This document shows positions 54,283-64,000 of a DNA stretch of 64,000 nucleotides, piece after piece. Under the pieces are notes generated by a model, which was not told the origin of the DNA, did no database searches, and worked only from the letters and a program-made list of their open reading frames with translations. A program made the translations under genes and the position numbers. Source of the DNA: Oscillospiraceae bacterium (GTDB lineage Bacteria; Bacillota; Clostridia; Oscillospirales; Acutalibacteraceae); assembly GCA_015066385.1 (NCBI GenBank), contig SVOJ01000001.1, forward strand, positions 1-64,000, in the 5' to 3' direction. Every line of letters starts with the position of its first letter. Within the stretch, counting starts at the first letter, position 1.

Positions 54283-54366
54283 TCGTGTACCCAATCCCAC
54301 CTTTCGTGTACCCAACCTGACCTTTCGTGTACCCAACCTAAATAATCGTGTACCCAACCTTTTGGT
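54283..54366. repeat. Four direct repeats spaced exactly 21 bp
   Basis: TCGTGTACCCAA starts at 54283, 54304, 54325 and 54346, exactly two helical turns apart. The following 9 bp of each unit are less conserved. The stretch lies in the 295-bp non-coding gap between tRNA-Leu and the next gene. Confidence 0.9.
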
Positions 54367-54408: not shown

Positions 54409-55011
54409 TTACAGTAGTGGTATGCTTTTATCATCTGGTACACCGAAGTATTTTTTCACTTCTCTTGTATACTTCATAGTTTGGATTTGGTTTGAAACAT
54501 ACCCAGGTTCGGTTAAAGTCAAAATCTTATTAGCAGTGATGTAACCATAGAAATGTGCCAACTTCGGACATACGGTTTCAAGGTATGTATGAAACTCCGT
54601 GATTGAAGCAAAACACTCCATTTCTGCTATACCATATTCCTTGATTATTTCGGCCACTACTTTTTCTGCATCTTTTCTTGCGGGTAGATTGAGCATTACA
54701 CCTTCTTGAACATAATGCTCTAAACCTTGATTAAGAATAATTATGTTTGAAGGGTGCCTAAATTCGCTTATATTTGCCTTTAAACCCTGTGCAGTAGCAA
54801 ACCTTATATCGGATGCTATTTGCTGTTTCAAAGCCGTTATTAAGGCGTTAACTGCTTCAGAACCGATGCTGGCAAGCATATCATCGACAGCGGATTCGGC
54901 ACGGGTCTTTACTTCTTTAAAATCTTCACACCAAGCATCAATGTAATCAAACATCTTTTCAACGATTACAGAATCATTCAATAAATTATTAACCATTTCT
55001 TTTATATCCAT
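54409..55011 (-). CDS. Island protein of unknown function
   Basis: I do not recognise this 200-residue protein. It is predominantly helical, acidic to neutral, with no signal peptide or membrane segment. GGAG lies upstream of the ATG. It reads toward the 21-bp repeat array and away from the Xre regulator. The A+T-rich composition matches the island rather than the region left of the tRNA. The C-terminal region contains KYTREVKKYFGVPDD. A role with the repeats or in defence is possible but has no direct support. Confidence 0.65.
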   Translation of the reverse strand: MDIKEMVNNLLNDSVIVEKMFDYIDAWCEDFKEVKTRAESAVDDMLASIGSEAVNALITALKQQIASDIRFATAQGLKANISEFRHPSNIIILNQGLEHYVQEGVMLNLPARKDAEKVVAEIIKEYGIAEMECFASITEFHTYLETVCPKLAHFYGYITANKILTLTEPGYVSNQIQTMKYTREVKKYFGVPDDKSIPLL

Positions 55012-55219: not shown

Positions 55220-55540
55220 TTATAAAGTAGCTATAAAAGCATCAAGAATGGCTGCAGCCGCTTTTCTTTGTTTTGGAGTAAGCTCCGACAGTTTTTCGGT
55301 CAGTTCATCAAAAACATAATCCTTACCTGAAGGCAACTCATCACGGAGAATGTAGTCTGCAGAAATATCAAGAGACTCTACAATTCTTATAAATACTTTT
55401 AGGCTCGGCATCTTTAACCCACGCTCAATTTCACCAAGATAAATAGGCCCGATACCTGATTTTTCAGCAAGCACTTCTTGCGTGTATCCTTTTCCGATTC
55501 TTGCTTCTTTTATCTTTTTACCAAGTTCAACTTTATCCAT
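55220..55540 (-). CDS. Xre-family transcriptional regulator
   Basis: The 106-residue protein has an N-terminal helix-turn-helix (LGKKIKEARIGKGYTQEVLA, GIGPIYLGEIERG) and a short helical C-terminus, as in phage-like and island repressors. It is divergent from the small protein gene at 55680, and the intergenic region holds a long palindrome at 55550-55598, a likely operator. It may repress itself and the rightward gene. The A+T-rich composition agrees with island origin. Confidence 0.88.
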   Translation of the reverse strand: MDKVELGKKIKEARIGKGYTQEVLAEKSGIGPIYLGEIERGLKMPSLKVFIRIVESLDISADYILRDELPSGKDYVFDELTEKLSELTPKQRKAAAAILDAFIATL

Positions 55541-55549
55541 AATTGCACC

Positions 55550-55598
55550 TCCAAAGCAAATAGCATTATTTCCATACTATAAGTATATTTGCTTTGGA
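55550..55598. promoter_or_regulatory. Nested palindromic operator by the Xre gene
   Basis: Perfect 13-bp arms TCCAAAGCAAATA (55550-55562) and their inverse (55586-55598) enclose an inner palindrome ATACT-ATA-AGTAT (55574-55586). The site ends 10 nt before the Xre start codon on the minus side and 82 nt before the plus gene. Confidence 0.75.
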
Positions 55599-55679
55599 AG
55601 TTTAATGAACAAGCCGACAGCATTGATTATAGTTTATTAAAGAAGTTAATATAAAAATTAATAAGTTTAGGAGGGTGCT

Positions 55680-56036
55680 ATGGTAAGCTACCTTGATGGC
55701 TATGATGCAGTCTTTCTGCCCGGTAAAATACATGGTGCAGAGCATCAGATTTATATTATTTATTACAACCCCGATGCTGATAACGGAAATGGGTGTTTTG
55801 AAATTGAAGTTCTTGACGCCGAAAGGATAGTTGAACTATACGAATATGTAGATGGGGATGCAGAAAATTTTTTCACCTTGCTACCAGATTGGTTTCAAGG
55901 TAAATGGTACTATTGTGATAGGAAGTGTATTGATTTTAAGAATTATGTCGAGTGTTATAATGAAGCCGATTTTATTATTGGTAGAGACGGAGGAATGGGG
56001 GCAGAGTTGAATCTTATAGTAAGTAGTTTTTGTTAA
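55680..56036 (+). CDS. Small acidic protein with a CYNEADFI motif
   Basis: I do not recognise this 118-residue acidic protein. GGAGGG lies 4-5 nt upstream of the ATG. It has an aromatic, Asp-rich sequence (YIIYYNPDADNGNG, LLPDWFQGKWYYCD) with no membrane segment, and the motif YVECYNEADFI near residue 90, shared with the small protein at 1294-1587. Such small acidic proteins in islands are often immunity, anti-restriction or toxin partner proteins, but there is no direct sign of this. It ends 11 bp before the first silent hsdS junction. Confidence 0.65.
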   Translation: MVSYLDGYDAVFLPGKIHGAEHQIYIIYYNPDADNGNGCFEIEVLDAERIVELYEYVDGDAENFFTLLPDWFQGKWYYCDRKCIDFKNYVECYNEADFIIGRDGGMGAELNLIVSSFC

Positions 56037-56047
56037 GTCAACCTCCT

Positions 56048-56064
56048 ATAATTTGCCTTATGAG
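56048..56064 (+). repeat. Inverted repeat, junction 1 (silent side)
   Basis: This 17-bp sequence is identical to the inverse of 60287-60303 in the active hsdS, and further similarity continues to the right for about 60 bp. The core includes CCTTATGAG. Confidence 0.8.
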
Positions 56065-57441
56065 CAGGTCGGCAAAAATGCGCCTGTGTGCATTGCTGAT
56101 GAGGTGCCATTTGAGATACCTGACACATGGGAATGGGTTAGATTTTGCAATGTAGTAAATTATTCTATGGGCAAAACGCCTCCACGGAAAGAGTCAGAAT
56201 ATTGGAACAACCCCATACATAATTGGGTTTCAATAGCCGATATGGTTTCCGATGGACATATTTCCGAAACTAAAGAAGGCGTTAGTGCATATGCTGCCGA
56301 TGTTAGTTTTAAAGGGAGAAAAAGTCCAGCAGGAACTCTTTTAATGAGTTTCAAACTTACAGTAGGTAAAGTCTCTATATTGGATATCGATGCATTTCAC
56401 AATGAAGCAATAATATCGATTTATCCTTTTGTTGACGATAACAAAATTATGACTTCATATTTATTTGCTGTAATGCCGTTATTGTCACAGTTGGGAGAAA
56501 CAAAAACGGCTATTAAAGGTAACACATTAAATTCTGACAGTTTGGATAGCTTATGGATTCCTTTGCCTCCCCTGAATGAACAAGATAGGATTTGTTCAAA
56601 ACTAAAAGAGCTTCTTCCAGTTTTGAGTAATTATTCTGAATTAGAGCAGGAAATCAAAATATTAAACTTGTCATTCCCGGAAAAACTAAAGAAATCAATT
56701 CTCCAAGAAGCGGTTCAAGGCAAACTTGTACCCCAAGATGAAAATGATGAGCCTGCTTCAGTATTGCTTGAGAGAATCAGAGCAGAAAAACAAGCACTAA
56801 TCAAGGCAGGCAAAATAAAAAAAGATAAGAATGAATCCGTCATTTTCAGAAGGGATAATTCTCATTATGAAAAGCGTGGTTCTGAAGTGGTTTGCATTGA
56901 TGATGAAATACCATTTGAGATACCTAATTCTTGGGAATGGGTTAGATTGAAAAGCATTTGCACAAAGCTTGTGGACGGAGACCACAATCCTCCTAAAGGT
57001 GAAACTTTTGAAACTCAATATATTATGGCTTCGTCTACTAACATAAACAACAATAGGTTAGTTGAATTAAATAAGGTTAGATATTTATCAAAAGAAGTTT
57101 TTGAACAAGAAAACTTACGTACCAATGCTACTACTGGCGATTTGTTTTTTACCTCTGTTGGGTCGTTAGGAAGAAGTTGTGTTTACGAAGGTGGATATAA
57201 CGTTTGTTTCCAACGTAGTGTTTCTGTTATAACAACACTAATTTATAATTATTATTTAAAACTTGTATTTGACTCCGCATATTTTCAAAACAAAGCAATT
57301 AAGGAAGCAACAGGAACGGCGCAAAAAGGATTTTATCTAAATCAACTTGCAGAAATGTTAATCCCCGTTCCTCCGATGAGTGAGCAACAACGGATTGTTG
57401 ATTTTGCAAACAAAGTATTGTCAACTATCGAAGCTTTGTAA
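56053..57441 (+). CDS. Silent hsdS cassette, two target-recognition domains
   Basis: This is an N-terminally truncated type I specificity subunit. The reading frame enters at NLPYEQVGKN, which in the active HsdS lies near residue 62, and continues through a first recognition domain, the central conserved helix region (KKSILQEAVQGKLVPQ), and a second recognition domain, ending at residue ~462 with a stop 3 nt before junction 57444. The first 60 residues, ribosome binding site and promoter are missing. It can therefore act only after recombination into the active gene. The TTG at 56053 is merely the first possible start. Confidence 0.85.
   Translation: MPYEQVGKNAPVCIADEVPFEIPDTWEWVRFCNVVNYSMGKTPPRKESEYWNNPIHNWVSIADMVSDGHISETKEGVSAYAADVSFKGRKSPAGTLLMSFKLTVGKVSILDIDAFHNEAIISIYPFVDDNKIMTSYLFAVMPLLSQLGETKTAIKGNTLNSDSLDSLWIPLPPLNEQDRICSKLKELLPVLSNYSELEQEIKILNLSFPEKLKKSILQEAVQGKLVPQDENDEPASVLLERIRAEKQALIKAGKIKKDKNESVIFRRDNSHYEKRGSEVVCIDDEIPFEIPNSWEWVRLKSICTKLVDGDHNPPKGETFETQYIMASSTNINNNRLVELNKVRYLSKEVFEQENLRTNATTGDLFFTSVGSLGRSCVYEGGYNVCFQRSVSVITTLIYNYYLKLVFDSAYFQNKAIKEATGTAQKGFYLNQLAEMLIPVPPMSEQQRIVDFANKVLSTIEAL
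56833..56870 (+). repeat. Inverted repeat, junction 2 (within silent cassette)
   Basis: 38 bp identical to the inverse of 59478-59515 in the active hsdS, ending at TCATTATGA, the same core as the 54-bp repeat. Confidence 0.85.
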
Positions 57442-57443
57442 AG

Positions 57444-57497
57444 TTCTCATTATGAGAAGTTGAACGGAATTGAACGTTGTATCGACGATGAAATACC
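57444..57497 (+). repeat. 54-bp perfect inverted repeat, silent side
   Basis: Identical to the inverse of 59436-59489. It begins with the near-palindrome TTCTCATTATGAGAA and continues into the conserved start of the second recognition domain. Confidence 0.92.
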
Positions 57498-58029
57498 GTT
57501 TGAGATTCCTGAAAATTGGTGTTGGTGCAGGCTCGGAACGATCACTTCGGTTTTAGGTGGTAAACGTATTCCTGCAGGCAGAAAGCTTATCAAAGATAAC
57601 ACGGGACACATATATATTCGTGTCTCTGATATGAAGGACGGTTGGGTCTCAACAGAAGATTTACAATATGTGCCGACAGACATTTATCCAAGCATCTCAA
57701 AATACATCATAAAAAAAGAAGATGTATTTATAACTGTAGCTGGTACTATCGGCAGAATAGGTAAAATCCCAAGAGAGCTTGATGGTGCTAATTTAACAGA
57801 GAATGCCGATAGGCTTGTTTTTACAATAATAAATCAAGATTGGCTTATTAAAGAATTACAATCTCCCTTAATTCAGGCTCAAATCGCCGAAGCTACAACT
57901 AAGGTTGGTCAGCCTAAATTAGCAATTGCAAGAATTGAAAAATTACTAATTGCATTACCGCCCCTCAAAGAACAACACCGTATCGTTGCTGCATATAATT
58001 CTTTGCTGCCGTACATCGAGCAATTATAA
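57460..58029 (+). CDS. Silent hsdS cassette, single recognition domain
   Basis: This 189-residue half HsdS begins at the 54-bp repeat (frame SHYEKLNGIERC) and carries one target-recognition domain with a different sequence from the two others, ending KEQHRIVAAYNSLLP and a stop. No promoter or ribosome binding site precedes it. By inversion at 57444-57497/59436-59489 it would replace the second half of the active HsdS. It is followed by the recombinase gene. Confidence 0.85.
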   Translation: MNGIERCIDDEIPFEIPENWCWCRLGTITSVLGGKRIPAGRKLIKDNTGHIYIRVSDMKDGWVSTEDLQYVPTDIYPSISKYIIKKEDVFITVAGTIGRIGKIPRELDGANLTENADRLVFTIINQDWLIKELQSPLIQAQIAEATTKVGQPKLAIARIEKLLIALPPLKEQHRIVAAYNSLLPYIEQL

Positions 58030-58047
58030 CTTTCAATCTGTATAATT

Positions 58048-58072
58048 ATAGCGAAAGGAGGTCTTTCGCTAT
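58048..58072 (+). promoter_or_regulatory. Hairpin over the recombinase start site
   Basis: Perfect 10-bp arms ATAGCGAAAG (58048-58057) and its inverse (58063-58072) put the ribosome binding site GAGG in the 5-nt loop and the first two bases of the start codon in the stem. Confidence 0.75.
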
Positions 58073-58880
58073 GATAGATAAAAACAAATTTGAAAGACAC
58101 TTGAGAGGTACAAACCTTTCAGAAAACACGATTTCATCGTATATGTTTGCAATAAAACAATTCAGCGAACAGTACGATGAAGTCACAAAGAAAAACCTAC
58201 GGGAGTACAAGGTGTGGCTTATTGAAAGCTACAAGCCGAAAACGGTGAACTTAAGGCTCAGAGCAATCAACTGCTACTTGGAAAGTGTGGGTAAAGAAAA
58301 ATGGAAAATGCCCTTTGTAAGAGTACAACAAAAGGCTTTTCTTGAAAATGTCATCAGTGAGGCTGACTATGAATATTTCAAAAACAGCCTTAAAAAAGAT
58401 GATGAAATGTTTTGGTATTTTGTTATTCGCTTTTTGGCAGCGACAGGCGCAAGAGTCAGTGAGCTTATACAAATCAAGGTTGAACATATCAAGCTCGGTC
58501 ACTTGGATTTGTACTCAAAAGGCGGCAAGTTAAGGCGAATATACATACCGCAATCTTTAAAAGAAGAAGCCCTTTCATGGTTAGCTGAAAAGCATCAGGA
58601 AAGTGGCTTCATTTTTTTGAACAAGTATGGTGACAGAATTACCACCCGTGGTATATCCGGGCAACTCAAAAAATTAGCTGTGAGATATGGTATTGACCCT
58701 GCTGTCGTTTATCCTCATTCATTTCGCCACAGGTTTGCAAAAAGCTTTCTTGACCGCTGTAACGATATTGCTTTTCTTGCTGACCTTATGGGACATGAAA
58801 GCATTGAAACAACACGAATATACCTTCGCAAAACAGCAACCGAGCAAAGAGAAATCGTTGATAAAATAGTCGATTGGTAA
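58071..58880 (+). CDS. Tyrosine recombinase (hsdS-inverting type)
   Basis: The 269-residue protein has an N-terminal SAM-like core-binding domain and a catalytic domain with Arg128, Lys153, His216, Arg219, His242 and Tyr251 (motifs TGARVSEL, HSFRHRF, LMGHESIETTRIYL). This is the full tyrosine-recombinase active site. The short length and the position between silent and active hsdS copies match recombinases that invert hsdS segments in phase-variable type I systems. It lies inside the segment flanked by the inverted repeats, so it would be turned by its own action. Translation may be limited by the hairpin at 58048-58072. A phage or conjugative role is unlikely because no such genes are near. 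Confidence 0.92.
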   Translation: MIDKNKFERHLRGTNLSENTISSYMFAIKQFSEQYDEVTKKNLREYKVWLIESYKPKTVNLRLRAINCYLESVGKEKWKMPFVRVQQKAFLENVISEADYEYFKNSLKKDDEMFWYFVIRFLAATGARVSELIQIKVEHIKLGHLDLYSKGGKLRRIYIPQSLKEEALSWLAEKHQESGFIFLNKYGDRITTRGISGQLKKLAVRYGIDPAVVYPHSFRHRFAKSFLDRCNDIAFLADLMGHESIETTRIYLRKTATEQREIVDKIVDW

Positions 58881-58886
58881 TATTAA

Positions 58887-58917
58887 AGGCATACACCTCT
58901 CAATGAAGTGTATGCCT
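58887..58917. terminator. Bidirectional terminator between recombinase and hsdS
   Basis: Perfect 10-bp arms AGGCATACAC and GTGTATGCCT with an 11-nt loop between convergent genes. T-rich flanks are modest (AATATTAATA side and GAAATTAT side). Confidence 0.65.
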
Positions 58918-58921
58918 GAAA

Positions 58922-60490
58922 TTATAGCTTTGTATAAAGAATATCAATCATTTGCGTGATTCGCTCTTGTTCCGCTTTTGGTGGTATAGGCAACAACATT
59001 CTTGATAATGTTTGACCATTGCAATTTGGCTGAGCTGTGGCAATAGTGCCTGAACGCAATTGAGACCAATACAACTCACTTTCCATAAAGTACTTTAAGT
59101 ATTTTGGAACAAGTTCATTACTATAACGGGTTCTGATTAAGTATCCAGCATATATAGCATCTTCAAGAATTTCTGTTACTAAATATGATTTACCAACCGT
59201 GCCGCCTGTTCTGGCAAACAATATATCATTAGGTTTTAAAAGGTAAGTTTCTATATCCTCTTCGGCAATATCGCAGAACGGAACAGAATCCCATTTAACA
59301 GTATTATTATGTATGTCACTGATGCGTACCATCTTGATTTTTCCATCACTTTTTGCGGGTGCATTATAGCCATACTGTATGCTTTGCGATATGTTGCCCC
59401 ATCGTTCCCATTGCCAACTTTCAGGAATTTCGAATGGTATTTCATCGTCGATACAACGTTCAATTCCGTTCAACTTCTCATAATGAGAATTATCCCTTCT
59501 GAAAATGACGGATTCGTTCTTATCTCGCTTAATTTTACCTGCCTTAATCAGTGCTTGTTTTTCAGCTCTTATACGCTCAAGTAACACTGAAGCGGGTTCG
59601 TCATTTTCATCTTGAGGAACAAGTTTTCCTTGAACCGCTTCTTGAAGTATTGATTTTTTGAGAATATCACTAAACGACGCATTAAGGATGGATAATGTAT
59701 TTTCTTTGGTTGTGTATTCTTCGGTAAGTGGTTCAAATACTGATAATTTATCAAAAATACGTTTTTGTTCTTCTAAAGGAGGAACGGGAATTAACATTCT
59801 CGGTATATCGATTAAATTAATTTTATAAGTATGAGTACCACCGCCGACTTTGTTGTCGTGAATCCATTTATCGCCTAACGGGGAGTTTATTGCAAATACT
59901 AAATAGTCAGTTATTGAAATATCTACTGGTCTCAACAACCCTAAACTTACGAAAATGCTAAATTCAAAATCAAGAGTGCATTTAATAGCTTTTCCTAATG
60001 TGCCTATTCGGCAAAACAATATATCGTCTTTTTGTGGTTTGATTCGTTCAATCAATTTTTGATGTTCCTCTTGTGTTATGTATTTGATTTTTGTGAAATC
60101 AAACTTCCCACTCGAAATATTTTGAACTGAAAGAAATGGAACACCATCTGGTACATAATGCGGTGTTTTATGCGTGCCATCACTTATAACGCTTAACAAA
60201 CTGCCTAATCGCACCCACTCCCAGCTATCAGGGATATCAAAAGGCACCTCATCAGCAATGCATACAGGCTCGTTTTTGCCGACTTTCTCATAAGGCAAAT
60301 TATCGGCACCACGGAATATTACAGAAGGATTCTTTTCTTTCTTGATTTTACCGGCTTTTATCAAGGCTTCCTTTTCTGCTCTTATGCGTTCCAAAAGAAC
60401 AGAAGCAGGTTCATCATTCGGGTCCTGCGGAACAAGTTTGCCCTGAACAGCCATTTGTAATATAGAATTTTTAAGCTGTTGTCCGGTCAT
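58922..60490 (-). CDS. hsdS: Type I restriction-modification specificity subunit HsdS
   Basis: HsdS gives the sequence specificity of the type I complex. This 522-residue protein has an N-terminal conserved segment (LKNSILQMAVQGKLVPQ, residues 5-21), a first recognition domain (about 75-260), a central repeat of the conserved segment (about 270-335, KKSILQEAVQGKLVPQ) and a second recognition domain (about 345-515). Junction sequences identical to silent cassettes lie at residue 62 (60287-60303) and residue 334 (59436-59515). It starts two bases after the hsdM stop. It is the expressed copy, and its two halves are probably exchangeable by inversion. Confidence 0.95.
   Translation of the reverse strand: MTGQQLKNSILQMAVQGKLVPQDPNDEPASVLLERIRAEKEALIKAGKIKKEKNPSVIFRGADNLPYEKVGKNEPVCIADEVPFDIPDSWEWVRLGSLLSVISDGTHKTPHYVPDGVPFLSVQNISSGKFDFTKIKYITQEEHQKLIERIKPQKDDILFCRIGTLGKAIKCTLDFEFSIFVSLGLLRPVDISITDYLVFAINSPLGDKWIHDNKVGGGTHTYKINLIDIPRMLIPVPPLEEQKRIFDKLSVFEPLTEEYTTKENTLSILNASFSDILKKSILQEAVQGKLVPQDENDEPASVLLERIRAEKQALIKAGKIKRDKNESVIFRRDNSHYEKLNGIERCIDDEIPFEIPESWQWERWGNISQSIQYGYNAPAKSDGKIKMVRISDIHNNTVKWDSVPFCDIAEEDIETYLLKPNDILFARTGGTVGKSYLVTEILEDAIYAGYLIRTRYSNELVPKYLKYFMESELYWSQLRSGTIATAQPNCNGQTLSRMLLPIPPKAEQERITQMIDILYTKL
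59436..59489 (-). repeat. 54-bp perfect inverted repeat, active hsdS side
   Basis: Inverse copy of 57444-57497. The left neighbour 59478-59515 is the inverse of 56833-56870, so one junction in the active gene can pair with two different silent cassettes. Confidence 0.92.
60287..60303 (-). repeat. Inverted repeat, junction 1 (active hsdS side)
   Basis: Inverse copy of 56048-56064, located at codon 62-67 of the active hsdS. Confidence 0.8.
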
Positions 60491-60492
60491 TA

Positions 60493-61971
60493 TTATTCCT
60501 CCGTAATATCGATTCCTAAAATATCAGTAATCTGTGCAAGAATGCGGTCAATATCAGCATTAAGACTTGCTCTTTTTGCCTGATACTGTTGAATGAGCTC
60601 TTTTGGAGGAAGTATTTCTTCTTCCTCATGAGGATAACCACAAAGGTCAATGTTATAATTCTTTTCAGCAATCTCTTCAACAGTGTATTTCTTTGCTTTG
60701 TCAAAACCATCAACTGCGATTTCTTCACGATTTTCCCACCAATCCATAGCAGGAGCAAAATGCTTGAGTTCCATCGGCTTTGTCTTTGAGAAGTTTTTAT
60801 AACCTTCAGGCATATCAAGGCGGTAGAACCAAGTTTCTGTTGTGGGGCCTGTTCTGTCAAAGAAAAGAATATTTGTAGTAATTGATGTATAAGGTGCAAA
60901 AACGCTGTGAGGCATACGGATAACAGTATGAAGATTAAACTCTGAAAGAAGCTTTTTCTTGATAGCTACTTTTGCATTATCTGTACCGAAAAGGAAACCG
61001 TCAGGAAGAATAACAGCTGCACGACCATTCTTTTTGAGTCTGTACATAATAACTGACATAAAAAGGTCAGCAGTTTCACTGCTTGCAAGATCTGACGGGA
61101 AGTGATTTTTCACTTCGTTCTTTTCGTTGCCACCATAAGGAGGGTTCATAAGAATAACTTCAAACTGGTCTTCTTCTGTGTAGTCAAGCACATCACGAAG
61201 CAAGGAGTTGTCGTGATAAATCTTCGGAACATCAATACCGTGAAGAAGCATATTTGTAATGCAAAGCATATACGGGAACTGCTTCTTTTCGATGCCGTAA
61301 ATTGAATTATCGTATTTTTCCTGGTCTTCGGTTGTTTCAATATGAGCTGAAAGTTCTTTGAGCCAGCTTGTAAGGAAACCACCTGTACCGCAAGCGAAGT
61401 CAGCGACATTTTCACCGATTTGGGGTTTAATCATTTTAGCCATAAAATCAGTTACAGCACGAGGAGTATAGAACTCACCTGAAGAACCGGCACTCTGAAG
61501 CTCTTTAAGTATAGTTTCATAAATATCACCGAAGGCGTGGCTTTCCTCATAATCATCAAGCTCAAGCTCATCAATAACATTGATAACCTGACGAAGAAGA
61601 ACACCGTCCTTCATATAGTTGTTTGCATCTTCAAAAGTTGTCTTAACGATAGATTTTTTTATGGGTGTATCTTTGCTGACAGATAAGCCCTTGAGTGTGG
61701 GAAACAGAGTGTTGTTGACAAAATTAAGAAGATTATCACCTGTCATTGCATTACCAGAGCGGTCATCGACAGCCCAATTACTCCAACGACATTCTTCGGG
61801 GATAATTGATACATAATCTTCGTCGTCAAATTCCCAGTCTTTTTCTTTGGCGTCATAAACCTTTAAAAAAAGCATCCATGCCATCTGTTCGATACGCTGT
61901 GCATCACCGTTGATACCGGCATCGTTACGCATTATATCTCTTATTCTTTTTACAAAATTTGATAAGCTCAT
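60493..61971 (-). CDS. hsdM: Type I restriction-modification methyltransferase HsdM
   Basis: The 492-residue protein has an N-terminal helical domain (HsdM_N), the SAM-binding motif FACGTGGF and the adenine methyltransferase motif NPPYGG at 276-281. It modifies adenine within the site chosen by HsdS and forms the M2S trimer. The length is typical. The C-terminus has a helical segment that contacts HsdS. The gene follows hsdR by 4 nt and precedes hsdS by 2 nt, so all are one operon. Confidence 0.96.
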   Translation of the reverse strand: MSLSNFVKRIRDIMRNDAGINGDAQRIEQMAWMLFLKVYDAKEKDWEFDDEDYVSIIPEECRWSNWAVDDRSGNAMTGDNLLNFVNNTLFPTLKGLSVSKDTPIKKSIVKTTFEDANNYMKDGVLLRQVINVIDELELDDYEESHAFGDIYETILKELQSAGSSGEFYTPRAVTDFMAKMIKPQIGENVADFACGTGGFLTSWLKELSAHIETTEDQEKYDNSIYGIEKKQFPYMLCITNMLLHGIDVPKIYHDNSLLRDVLDYTEEDQFEVILMNPPYGGNEKNEVKNHFPSDLASSETADLFMSVIMYRLKKNGRAAVILPDGFLFGTDNAKVAIKKKLLSEFNLHTVIRMPHSVFAPYTSITTNILFFDRTGPTTETWFYRLDMPEGYKNFSKTKPMELKHFAPAMDWWENREEIAVDGFDKAKKYTVEEIAEKNYNIDLCGYPHEEEEILPPKELIQQYQAKRASLNADIDRILAQITDILGIDITEE

Positions 61972-61975
61972 TATT

Positions 61976-64000
61976 TTAACCTACCTTATATAATTCTTCT
62001 TCAAGTTCTTTTATCGCTTTTAAATATCCGTCTTTGCCACCGAAATATGATGCGATTTTTGAAGGTTTACCATATTTTTTAAAGTCTTCAAGTTTAAGAA
62101 CCTCTGTTTTTTCTATTTCGTAAATGCCTGTATTCATATATCTGTCAAGTAAGGTTTCGAGGACTTCTCTTGCTACACCACTGTATTTGCTTAAGAAATC
62201 ACGCTTCTTAACATTGTTAGCACGCTCACGGCGTGTAAGAGGCTTTTTATCATAAGCGACATGGCAGATAAAGTCGAAATCATCAACAGCTTCCATTCCT
62301 TGTTCTTCTTTCATCTGCTGCAAATCAATCCCTTGTTCTGCAAGCAGGTTCTTAATAGCCTCTTTCTTTTCCTCAGCGGTCCACTGACGGATGAAATTAT
62401 CAAGAGAAGCATATTTACCAAGAATATTAGATTTAGTATAGTCAACTATGCTTTCCTGACGAAGAAGCTTTCCATTTGCATCGTAAACAGAAACTGTTTT
62501 ACCTAAAATTTGAACATTGCAGCCTCTTTCATCTACTATATATTTTTCAGTGGGAACAACCGGAGGAGTAAGACCTCCACCGCTGCCTGAACCTCCGCCA
62601 CCAGGCTTGTGGTCAGGGTCATATCCGTCAACCGTCTCAATGGGGCCGTCCCAATCAGGGTCGGCAAAAAGACGTGTTACATTACGGAAATCCATAACAA
62701 CAAAATGATTTTTACCTTCTTTTTCACGAAGACGAGTTCCACGACCTATAATCTGCTTGAATTCAGTCATAGAACTAATCATTTCATCAAGAACAATAAG
62801 TTTAGTCATCTTACAATCCGCGCCTGTGGAAAGCAACTTTGATGTTGTTGCAATAACAGGATATGGCGCTGAAACAGATATAAAATAATCAAGTTTGCTT
62901 TTTCCATATGCGTCAGAACCCGTGATACGAACAACATAATCAGGATTCTCTTTGCACATATCGGCATTAAGATTATTAAGGGCAATTCGCATTCTTTCAG
63001 CGTGGTCCTCTGTTGCACAGAAAACAATGGTTTTCTGCATTCTGTCGGTACTCTTAAGATATTCAGTAATTTCTCTTGCGACCTCATAGGTACGGTCTTC
63101 GAGAATGATGTTGTAGTCAAAATCACTGTTGGTATAAATTTTATCTTCTATTTCATAGCCGTTTTTATCAAGCTGCCCCTTATAAGGTCTCCATCCCTCA
63201 CCGATGTTTGTTTTGATATTTATAACTTTAAACGGTGCAAGGAAACCGTCTTCAATGCCTTCACGAAGGCTGTAGGTGTATATCGGTTCACCAAAGTAAT
63301 CAATGTTCGAAATATACTTTGTTTCCTTTGGTGTTGCTGTCATACCAATCTGCGTAGCTGATGAGAAATATTCAAGAATTTTACGCCAGTTGCTGTCTTT
63401 TTTTGCCGAGCCTCTGTGACACTCATCTACTATAATGAGGTCAAAGAAATCTTTATTGAAGAGCTTAGCAAAACGCTCAACAGCATCTTCGCCGCCAGTT
63501 TCATCATCCTCATCATTGCTATTTCCGGCAAGCTGCTGATAAAGAGAAAAATACACTTCGTGAGAAGTTATTGTAACAGGGTCATCTTTTGCAAAATTGA
63601 TTTTATGTATAGTTTTTTCAAGTGGTGAAAAGTCCTGCTGAATAGATTGGTCAACAAGAATGTTTCTGTCCGCAAGGTATAATACCTTTTTCTTGAGATT
63701 GCTCTTCAACAGACGATATACAATCTGGAAAGCGGTATATGTTTTGCCCGTGCCTGTAGCCATAACAAGCAAAAGACGGTCTTGACCCTTTGCGATTGCC
63801 TCAACAGTACGGTTAATTGCATTGCGCTGATAATAACGAGGGTCATAGGTATTCTGACTTGAATAGTAAGGCTGTGCAATTACCTTCTTTTCATTATCAG
63901 TTATGCCTTGTGCTTCCCAACGGGCTGTTAATTCATCAGCTGTGGGAAACTCATCCATAGAGAGTTCTCGCTCTACTCCTGTTAAAAAGTCGTATTCTTG
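61976..64000 (-). CDS. hsdR: Type I restriction endonuclease subunit HsdR (partial)
   Basis: The reading frame is open to the right window edge, and the sequence before the first internal ATG (63958) continues the family pattern (EFLTG-type DFLTGVERELS), so the N-terminal nuclease domain lies outside the window. Visible are the Walker A motif MATGTGKT, the DECHRG motif, TATP, the helicase C-terminal domain with GRGTRLRE, a Gly-rich linker (GGGGSGSGGG) and the EcoEI-type C-terminal domain. It moves and cuts unmodified DNA. It is the first gene of the hsdRMS operon; the promoter is beyond the window. Confidence 0.95.
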   Translation of the reverse strand, partial: QEYDFLTGVERELSMDEFPTADELTARWEAQGITDNEKKVIAQPYYSSQNTYDPRYYQRNAINRTVEAIAKGQDRLLLVMATGTGKTYTAFQIVYRLLKSNLKKKVLYLADRNILVDQSIQQDFSPLEKTIHKINFAKDDPVTITSHEVYFSLYQQLAGNSNDEDDETGGEDAVERFAKLFNKDFFDLIIVDECHRGSAKKDSNWRKILEYFSSATQIGMTATPKETKYISNIDYFGEPIYTYSLREGIEDGFLAPFKVINIKTNIGEGWRPYKGQLDKNGYEIEDKIYTNSDFDYNIILEDRTYEVAREITEYLKSTDRMQKTIVFCATEDHAERMRIALNNLNADMCKENPDYVVRITGSDAYGKSKLDYFISVSAPYPVIATTSKLLSTGADCKMTKLIVLDEMISSMTEFKQIIGRGTRLREKEGKNHFVVMDFRNVTRLFADPDWDGPIETVDGYDPDHKPGGGGSGSGGGLTPPVVPTEKYIVDERGCNVQILGKTVSVYDANGKLLRQESIVDYTKSNILGKYASLDNFIRQWTAEEKKEAIKNLLAEQGIDLQQMKEEQGMEAVDDFDFICHVAYDKKPLTRRERANNVKKRDFLSKYSGVAREVLETLLDRYMNTGIYEIEKTEVLKLEDFKKYGKPSKIASYFGGKDGYLKAIKELEEELYKVG

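Follow-up and report, generated by a model that had tools for sequence, protein, structure and literature searches.

A predicted invertible, phase-variable type I restriction-modification locus in an Oscillospiraceae bacterium, with a built-in PsrA-like recombinase and putative recombination sites with class-specific spacers

Introduction

How can a bacterium reshuffle the recognition domains of a single restriction-modification (RM) enzyme by DNA inversion and still obtain an intact specificity subunit from every rearrangement? The question is raised by a type I RM locus that fills the last ~8 kb of a 64,000-nucleotide stretch from an Oscillospiraceae bacterium (GenBank assembly GCA_015066385.1, contig SVOJ01000001.1, positions 1 to 64,000; referred to here as the window). 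With a locus of this sort, a single clone has several ways of methylating and restricting DNA, with consequences for phage defence, gene uptake and possibly gene regulation. An earlier note, made from the letters of the window, described an invertible, phase-variable hsdS locus with its own tyrosine recombinase. This is still the best reading of the region, and our analysis confirms that the locus is real, intact and of the kind known from pneumococcus as cod or SpnIII, where the recombinase is called PsrA or CreX. What the analysis adds is one short putative recombination site with class-specific spacers, the PsrA-like character of the recombinase and the exchange of domain blocks in related genomes. 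The site with its class-specific spacer is the part most worth testing. Our search for an earlier statement of the site or the spacer rule was confined to open-licence literature, and we claim no priority for either. Comparisons with published systems draw on portions of the reports cited.

Results

The hsdR, hsdM and hsdS genes lie next to one another on the minus strand, and the expressed HsdS has two target recognition domains, as expected of a type I RM system. hsdR (61976..64000) encodes an EcoAI/FtnUII-type restriction subunit (NCBIfam NF046051, E 1.1e-276, profile positions 118-768 of 768); its open reading frame (ORF) is 5'-open, the N-terminus extending past the end of the window. hsdM (60493..61971) encodes the N6-adenine methyltransferase subunit (Pfam N6_Mtase 3.2e-70, HsdM_N 7e-14) and ends 2 bases before the ATG of the active hsdS (58922..60490, 522 aa), whose two Methylase_S stretches correspond to domains A1 (about 59708-60232) and A2 (about 58931-59353). 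Facing this gene on the plus strand are two silent hsdS cassettes, each with its own stop codon, as the earlier note had it. The full cassette (56053..57441, stop 57441; Methylase_S 2.1e-25 in two stretches) carries a first-half domain, S1, and a second-half domain, S2, and is without the N-terminal part of the active hsdS. The half cassette (57460..58029, stop 58029; Methylase_S 4.6e-11) carries one second-half domain, S3. The window thus has five Methylase_S domains, of which the active gene and the full cassette contain two each and the half cassette the fifth, and this bears out the three extra domains originally proposed. Between the cassettes and the active gene, and inside every invertible segment of the locus, sits the gene for a 269-aa PsrA/CreX-like tyrosine recombinase (58071..58880, plus strand; Phage_integrase 1.2e-26). 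This arrangement is the SpnD39III/cod architecture, in which the recombinase lies within the invertible segment, a half cassette and a full one are silent, and six HsdS forms are possible.

The silent cassettes had also been called promoterless. A consensus scan agrees in that no plus-strand promoter-like site was found within 300 bp upstream of either silent ORF start, which is weak evidence; the scan found 12 promoter-like sites in 55600-60600, fewer than in shuffled sequence (mean 17.0, sd 4.3). A terminator-like hairpin with a 13-pair stem and a T tail (58887..58917, minus strand) directly follows the active hsdS within the invertible segment; it is a consensus match only, and three such hairpins in the region compare with 3.3 in shuffles. 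When the whole stretch was searched as DNA against its own 3.17 Mb genome, neither a second copy of the locus nor an alternative arrangement of it on another contig was found. The genome has one further place with HsdS domains, on contig C50, where the 9 kb examined contain no site (at most one mismatch; see below) and no inverted repeat of at least 18 bp.

Like positions in the active gene and the cassettes are joined by three inverted repeats of 54 bp (57444-57497, plus strand, with 59436-59489), 38 bp (56833-56870, plus strand, with 59478-59515) and 17 bp (56048-56064 with 60287-60303), each located exactly where the earlier note had put it and each a perfect reverse complement with 0 mismatches. 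They are far beyond chance because they are embedded in longer imperfect inverted repeats of 76-189 nt at 82-95%. Chance was rejected as their source on the strength of these long similar arms and of shuffled loci, in which site-like sequences (at most one mismatch) arose only 0.09 times per 8 kb. The outer and inner repeats have in common an 18-bp, in-frame pattern, GATAA-N6-TTATGAG, placed in the linker before each recognition domain; its core occurs in all three repeat pairs and resembles the published pneumococcal core. The outer site, P1, reads GATAA-TTTGCC-TTATGAG in the active gene (60287..60304, minus strand), where it codes in frame for D-N-L-P-Y-E, and TATAA-TTTGCC-TTATGAG in the silent copy (56047..56064, plus strand); the 17-bp repeat is this site minus its first base. 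The inner site, P2, reads GATAA-TTCTCA-TTATGAG in the active gene (59477..59494, minus strand), coding in frame for D-N-S-H-Y-E, and GATAA-TTCTCA-TTATGAA in the full silent cassette (56854..56871, plus strand). At the half cassette, the start of the 54-bp repeat supplies an inner half-site (57444..57456, plus strand) made up of the spacer TTCTCA and the right arm, without the GATAA arm. Perfect matches to GATAA-N6-TTATGAG occur only twice in the whole genome, at the two sites of the active hsdS.

When inversions between all like sites were enumerated in silico, eight arrangements resulted, four with the recombinase gene in each orientation, and together they encode exactly six HsdS proteins of 521-528 aa, all of them open. 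Six forms, the maximum that had been proposed, follow from the combination of two first-half with three second-half domains. It is conceivable that the locus once switched and is now fixed in this strain, its silent cassettes decaying, and the left-arm mismatch of the outer silent site and the missing left arm of the half cassette could be taken as signs of such decay. The same departures are found, however, in the outer sites and half-sites of other loci (the exact GATAA arm is missing from 16 of 52 inner sites of the half-cassette type in the loci scanned), so they look like normal features; moreover, each of the six products is an open frame, and the recombinase retains its catalytic residues. 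We accordingly regard a locked relic as quite improbable.

To place the locus among its relatives, we drew on one scan of a species-representative genome collection, which yielded 51 loci with relatives of the recombinase (58-91% identical over the best segment, some partial), or 52 with the window. Their record titles name Lachnospiraceae, Erysipelotrichaceae, other Clostridia, Gastranaerophilales/Melainabacteria, Pasteurellaceae, Treponema, Bacteroidales families, an alphaproteobacterium, Fusobacterium and the archaeon Methanimicrococcus, with the caution that labels of metagenome-assembled genomes (MAGs) may be wrong. HsdM is encoded nearby in 29 of the 52, namely the window and 28 relatives at 32-91% identity. 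In 12 of these 29 loci the recombinase shares the strand of hsdM, and in the other 17 it is on the opposite one (the best match being counted where there were two), as inversion predicts for a gene that lies inside the inverting segment. One viral-contig locus and some plasmid records do contain relatives, but no feature that we saw ties the window locus to a mobile element, and an origin from a phage or plasmid was set aside.

A number of recombinase relatives keep other company. Of 14 hsd-less or cut recombinase loci scanned, only L065, from Lachnospiraceae bacterium B68, gave a convincing site pair; the pairs in L060, L067 and L087 were discounted as weak, with 5-6 mismatches over the pair, and none was found in L059, L101, L064, L068, L075, L079, L050, L074, L084 or L088. 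The L065 recombinase (74% identical; L065:4152-7792) adjoins csrA (Pfam CsrA 1.9e-14) and a flagellin gene. Between csrA and the recombinase, and within neither gene, 133 bp are bounded by a 21-bp inverted repeat (6658-6678/6812-6832) whose arms are nearly those of our site (GATAA-TCAGAA-TTATCAG); such a pair arose in 0 of 100 shuffles. This repeat, with its site-like arms and its place outside genes, suggests an invertible promoter for motility genes, before csrA and flagellin. L059, L060 and L101 carry relatives 81-82% identical among what look like genes of ordinary metabolism, and neither hsd relatives nor convincing sites were found near them. In L068 (4908-11509) the relative lies between two paralogous genes for proteins with choline-binding repeats, and no facing site pair was found there. 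The locus from an alphaproteobacterial MAG (L082:5017-10352) has four sites with the spacer TCGTCA, two per orientation, and a fifth with another spacer; the HsdM of the type I system that it adjoins shows only 32% identity, and the recombinase-site module therefore appears to travel with different enzymes.

Relatives of the enzyme that are without the recombinase provide a useful control. A close HsdM is present in three of the 147 relatives' genomes besides the window's own (itself counted in the 147), and none of the three is among the recombinase matches at E 1e-20 or better. The two that we examined, G012 from the same genus (HsdM 79% identical) and G082 from the same family (77%), each have a single hsdS gene that is without a D-N-x-x-Y-E motif, an internal site (at most one mismatch) or a nearby inverted repeat of at least 18 bp; G012 has no silent cassettes. 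The switching version therefore looks like an ordinary enzyme to which recombinase, sites and cassettes were added, and from its distribution the addition looks sporadic among these relatives.

Are the sites maintained for the sake of the DNA or of the protein? A search for the protein motif D[NKRTS]xxYE upstream of a domain start recovered 88 sites in 36 of the 52 loci. Their codons were GAT in 88 of 88 (66.9 expected), TAT in 88 of 88 (66.1) and GAG in 79 of 88 (24.3), the expectations being taken from each locus's own codon use. Such fixed codon choice means that the constraint acts on DNA and not on protein alone, and the same-arm site pair outside genes in L065 likewise led us to reject a protein-only constraint on the linker. 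These observations bear on a further explanation, according to which the repeats are a mere by-product of duplicated hsdS cassettes, inversion proceeds by general homology or a RecA-independent route and the recombinase is dispensable. The window repeats do lie within longer stretches that are 70-95% similar, but the 17-bp outer repeat consists of the site minus a single base, which on general grounds is too short for general homology. The fixing of site codons against host usage, the related recombinase that adjoins a copy of the same site pair outside genes and the recombinase-free congener G012, with neither site nor cassettes, all argue in the same direction. Data from pneumococcus cut both ways: upon loss of CreX the 85-bp reaction remains and the 333-bp reaction is reduced but persists, and recA mutants still shuffle, whereas inversion at the 15-bp repeat stops, this repeat being wholly CreX-dependent (PMC6620402). 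On balance, we think it unlikely that the recombinase is dispensable in this way.

If the arms are constrained as DNA, the variable N6 between them becomes of particular interest. Pairing of spacers was followed in 58 loci, comprising the 51 relatives, the window and 6 plasmid, phage-collection or viral-contig loci, with L098 and L101 outside the set. Sites facing each other within 4 kb at no more than one mismatch were found in 33 of the 58, and in all 33 a spacer is common to both sides of the recombinase. In each of the 18 loci with at least two sites per side, the outer spacers match each other, the inner spacers match each other and the outer differs from the inner; across these 18 loci the outer spacer takes six forms and the inner spacer three. 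When right-hand spacers were re-paired among loci, the observed number of matches was reached in 0 of 20,000 permutations for each pair, a figure that ignores kinship and is not a true probability because the loci are related (two represent one isolate). Tyrosine recombinases need identical spacers to complete exchange, and it is on this family knowledge that we infer the spacer to be an address that keeps first-half domains in first-half slots.

Matched spacers can also support a different outcome, namely that segments are mainly excised and reintegrated, as at the pneumococcal tvr locus, rather than inverted. Two inner sites of the window have the same spacer in direct orientation, 585 bp apart, and would allow S2 to be excised; loss of this domain by such a route is conceivable. 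Every other same-spacer pair in the window faces its partner, however, as do same-spacer pairs in all 33 loci with facing sites, and the recombinase is found in either orientation to hsdM. We thus consider excision and reintegration very improbable as the main outcome.

The recombinase itself points to the same family of switches. A Streptococcus dysgalactiae record contains a protein annotated 'tyrosine-type DNA invertase PsrA', to which the window recombinase is 58.6% identical over 98% of the query; its NCBIfam matches include no PsrA model. R128, K153, H216, R219, H242 and Y251, whose catalytic roles we take from general knowledge of tyrosine recombinases, are invariant in 48 of 48 aligned sequences, which is in keeping with the intact active site described previously. 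(This count and the tree exclude nine relatives with matches shorter than about 780 bases and two whose matched span contains in-frame stops.) In a tree of the 48, the window falls among Bacillota sequences, with support of 96/91. Eight rows that separate at 100/99 are Bacteroidota, a Treponema, and plasmid and phage-collection records that include Streptococcus, Enterococcus and Ruminococcus albus. By its identity to the S. dysgalactiae protein, the one PsrA-annotated sequence compared, and by its intact catalytic set, the window recombinase belongs with the PsrA/CreX invertases.

Rearrangement can be followed between closely related genomes. L053 and L054 have flanks that are 95-96% identical and in the same orientation, and their hsdM-side blocks align at the conserved ends only. 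The block between outer and inner sites on the hsdM side of L053, presumably the active one, is instead identical at 813 of 813 positions to the far-side, silent block of L054. Likewise, in the Actinobacillus loci L072 and L073, one silent block finds its match, at 97% over 791 bp, in the hsdM-side block of the partner locus. In both pairs, a whole domain block has changed sides, exactly at the sites. Two scaffold ends of a single isolate, Amedibacillus dolichus DSM 3991 (L070, L071), have in common a 4299-bp stretch at 99.98%; one end has hsdM-hsdR on both sides, one of the two copies being truncated and interrupted by a gap, whereas the second end has the distal flank on both sides. Both kinds of junction are thereby present in the assembly. 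This could reflect the assembly of a culture of mixed orientation, or it may be a true inverted duplication. The earlier note had judged the set of domains likely to be new, and this holds only in a trivial sense because domain sets differ between most of the loci compared; the best domain matches among them are 59% (A1) and 74% (S1).

Discussion

Taken together, the evidence makes it highly probable that this is an invertible, phase-variable type I RM locus in which a built-in PsrA-like recombinase carries out site-specific inversion, spacers serve as addresses and six HsdS proteins can be made. According to this model, the recombinase would bind the GATAA and TTATGAG arms and exchange strands within the 6-bp spacer between them. 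The site before the first recognition domain, with spacer TTTGCC, would recombine solely with its facing copy, and the site before the second, with spacer TTCTCA, with either of two facing copies. Each inversion would swap the part of the expressed hsdS downstream of the site for the domain or domains of a silent cassette, turning over the recombinase gene in the process. Every product would be an open HsdS because the site is 18 bp long, in frame and located in the linker before a domain. By holding first-half domains to first-half slots and second-half domains to second-half slots, the spacer would allow six HsdS proteins to be made from 2 x 3 domains, each presumably with a bipartite specificity of its own for methylation and restriction. 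The sequences themselves show the anatomy, the repeats, the reading frames, the conservation of the site and the exchange of domain blocks between related genomes; an active recombinase that contacts the arms, a spacer that acts as an address, switching in this strain and changes of methylation are predictions of the model.

Several observations weigh against the model or limit its reach. Inversion in this strain is a prediction from sequence and not an observation, and part of the switching may not need the recombinase because the longer pneumococcal repeats still invert in its absence (PMC6620402). The matching of spacers could reflect passive inheritance inside longer repeats, and the permutation result, as noted, takes no account of kinship. 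The half-cassette site of the window is without its left arm. Two distinct addresses do not fit L066, which has one spacer at all three sites near the recombinase, or L082, where four sites have the same spacer and the fifth a different one. L057 is uncut and has hsd genes and a recombinase, and its sites are on one side only. A facing pair at no more than one mismatch is missing from 25 of the 58 loci, some on cut contigs and some without hsd genes, and several recombinase relatives lie in loci without hsd genes or sites. Sites are more divergent or not facing in the Segatella plasmid L097, the phage-collection record L099 and Streptococcus dysgalactiae L094, and Mycoplasmopsis arginini, with a recombinase 58% identical, has no site within one mismatch.

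The closest parallel is the pneumococcal cod/SpnD39III/SpnIII locus, whose recombinase PsrA is also known as CreX and IvrR. As in the window, an hsdR-hsdM-hsdS operon is accompanied by a recombinase gene within the locus, along with one half and one full silent hsdS, three repeat pairs and 2 x 3 domains giving six forms (PMC4190663, PMC4948785). Repeat lengths differ, being 17, 38 and 54 bp in the window and 15, 85 and 298/333 bp in pneumococcus. The window is further marked by its GATAA/TTATGAG arms. Sequences were compared with the S. dysgalactiae record annotated with psrA, whose HsdM is 62% identical to that of the window over 291 aa and which has the sites GCTAA-GAAACC-TTATGAG and GATAA-CTCTCC-TTATAAG. 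The pneumococcal repeats are reported to have a common 10-bp core, ATTATGGGAA; the 5 bp before it read CTCTT in two of the repeats (15 and 333 bp) and GAAAC in the third (85 bp) (PMC6620402). This core equals the right arm found here, and the bases before it fall at N6, where they form two spacer classes. All three pairs are inverted by PsrA in vitro, where the reaction at the 15-bp repeat requires adjacent upstream sequence in addition to the repeat itself (PMC7096588).

An attractive generalization is that PsrA-like recombinases across several phyla act on one site, GATAA-N6-TTATGAG, concealed in frame within the hsdS linker, and that spacer identity, not repeat length, decides which slots exchange. 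The address would vary between genomes while being matched within each locus, the same pair would be reused elsewhere, as at the putative L065 promoter, and the pneumococcal GAAAC would be a first-half address and not a defective site. We consider this wider proposal as apt to prove wrong as right. If the spacer is indeed an address, it explains how domains are shuffled without dead combinations, and the conflicting published views on the repeats used by the pneumococcal recombinase can be seen in a new light. A site this compact is also searchable, and could reveal switches that surveys based on repeat length miss.

A survey of REBASE found inverted-repeat hsdS loci to be widespread, with Ruminococcus and Bacteroides fragilis among the commensals; its systems have facing duplicated hsdS genes as in the window, several with recombinase genes (PMC7394358). 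It selects repeats of at least 20 bp and would therefore miss the 17-bp outer repeat described here, and the parts of the survey on which we draw define no common site (PMC7394358). SsuCC20p of Streptococcus suis resembles the window in its recombinase-dependent shuffling of type I domains between short repeats, but these repeats, TAAATCATCATTTA and TAAATGATGATTTA in two identical sets, are not the site of the window, and the recombinase is called xerD (PMC10790761). The pneumococcal SpnIV tvr locus is also a phase-variable type I system and differs by excision and reintegration.

Other features of the region

Next to the locus, 10 bases separate the outer silent site from the end of a 118-aa ORF (55680-56036) for which neither Pfam nor NCBIfam gave a match. 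Farther upstream, three repeat copies containing TCGTGTACCCAACCT at 21-bp spacing (54283-54360) adjoin a second ORF with no match in either database (54409-55011). A 28-nt imperfect inverted repeat (55542-55606) lies directly upstream of a helix-turn-helix regulator gene (55220-55540) and is possibly its operator.

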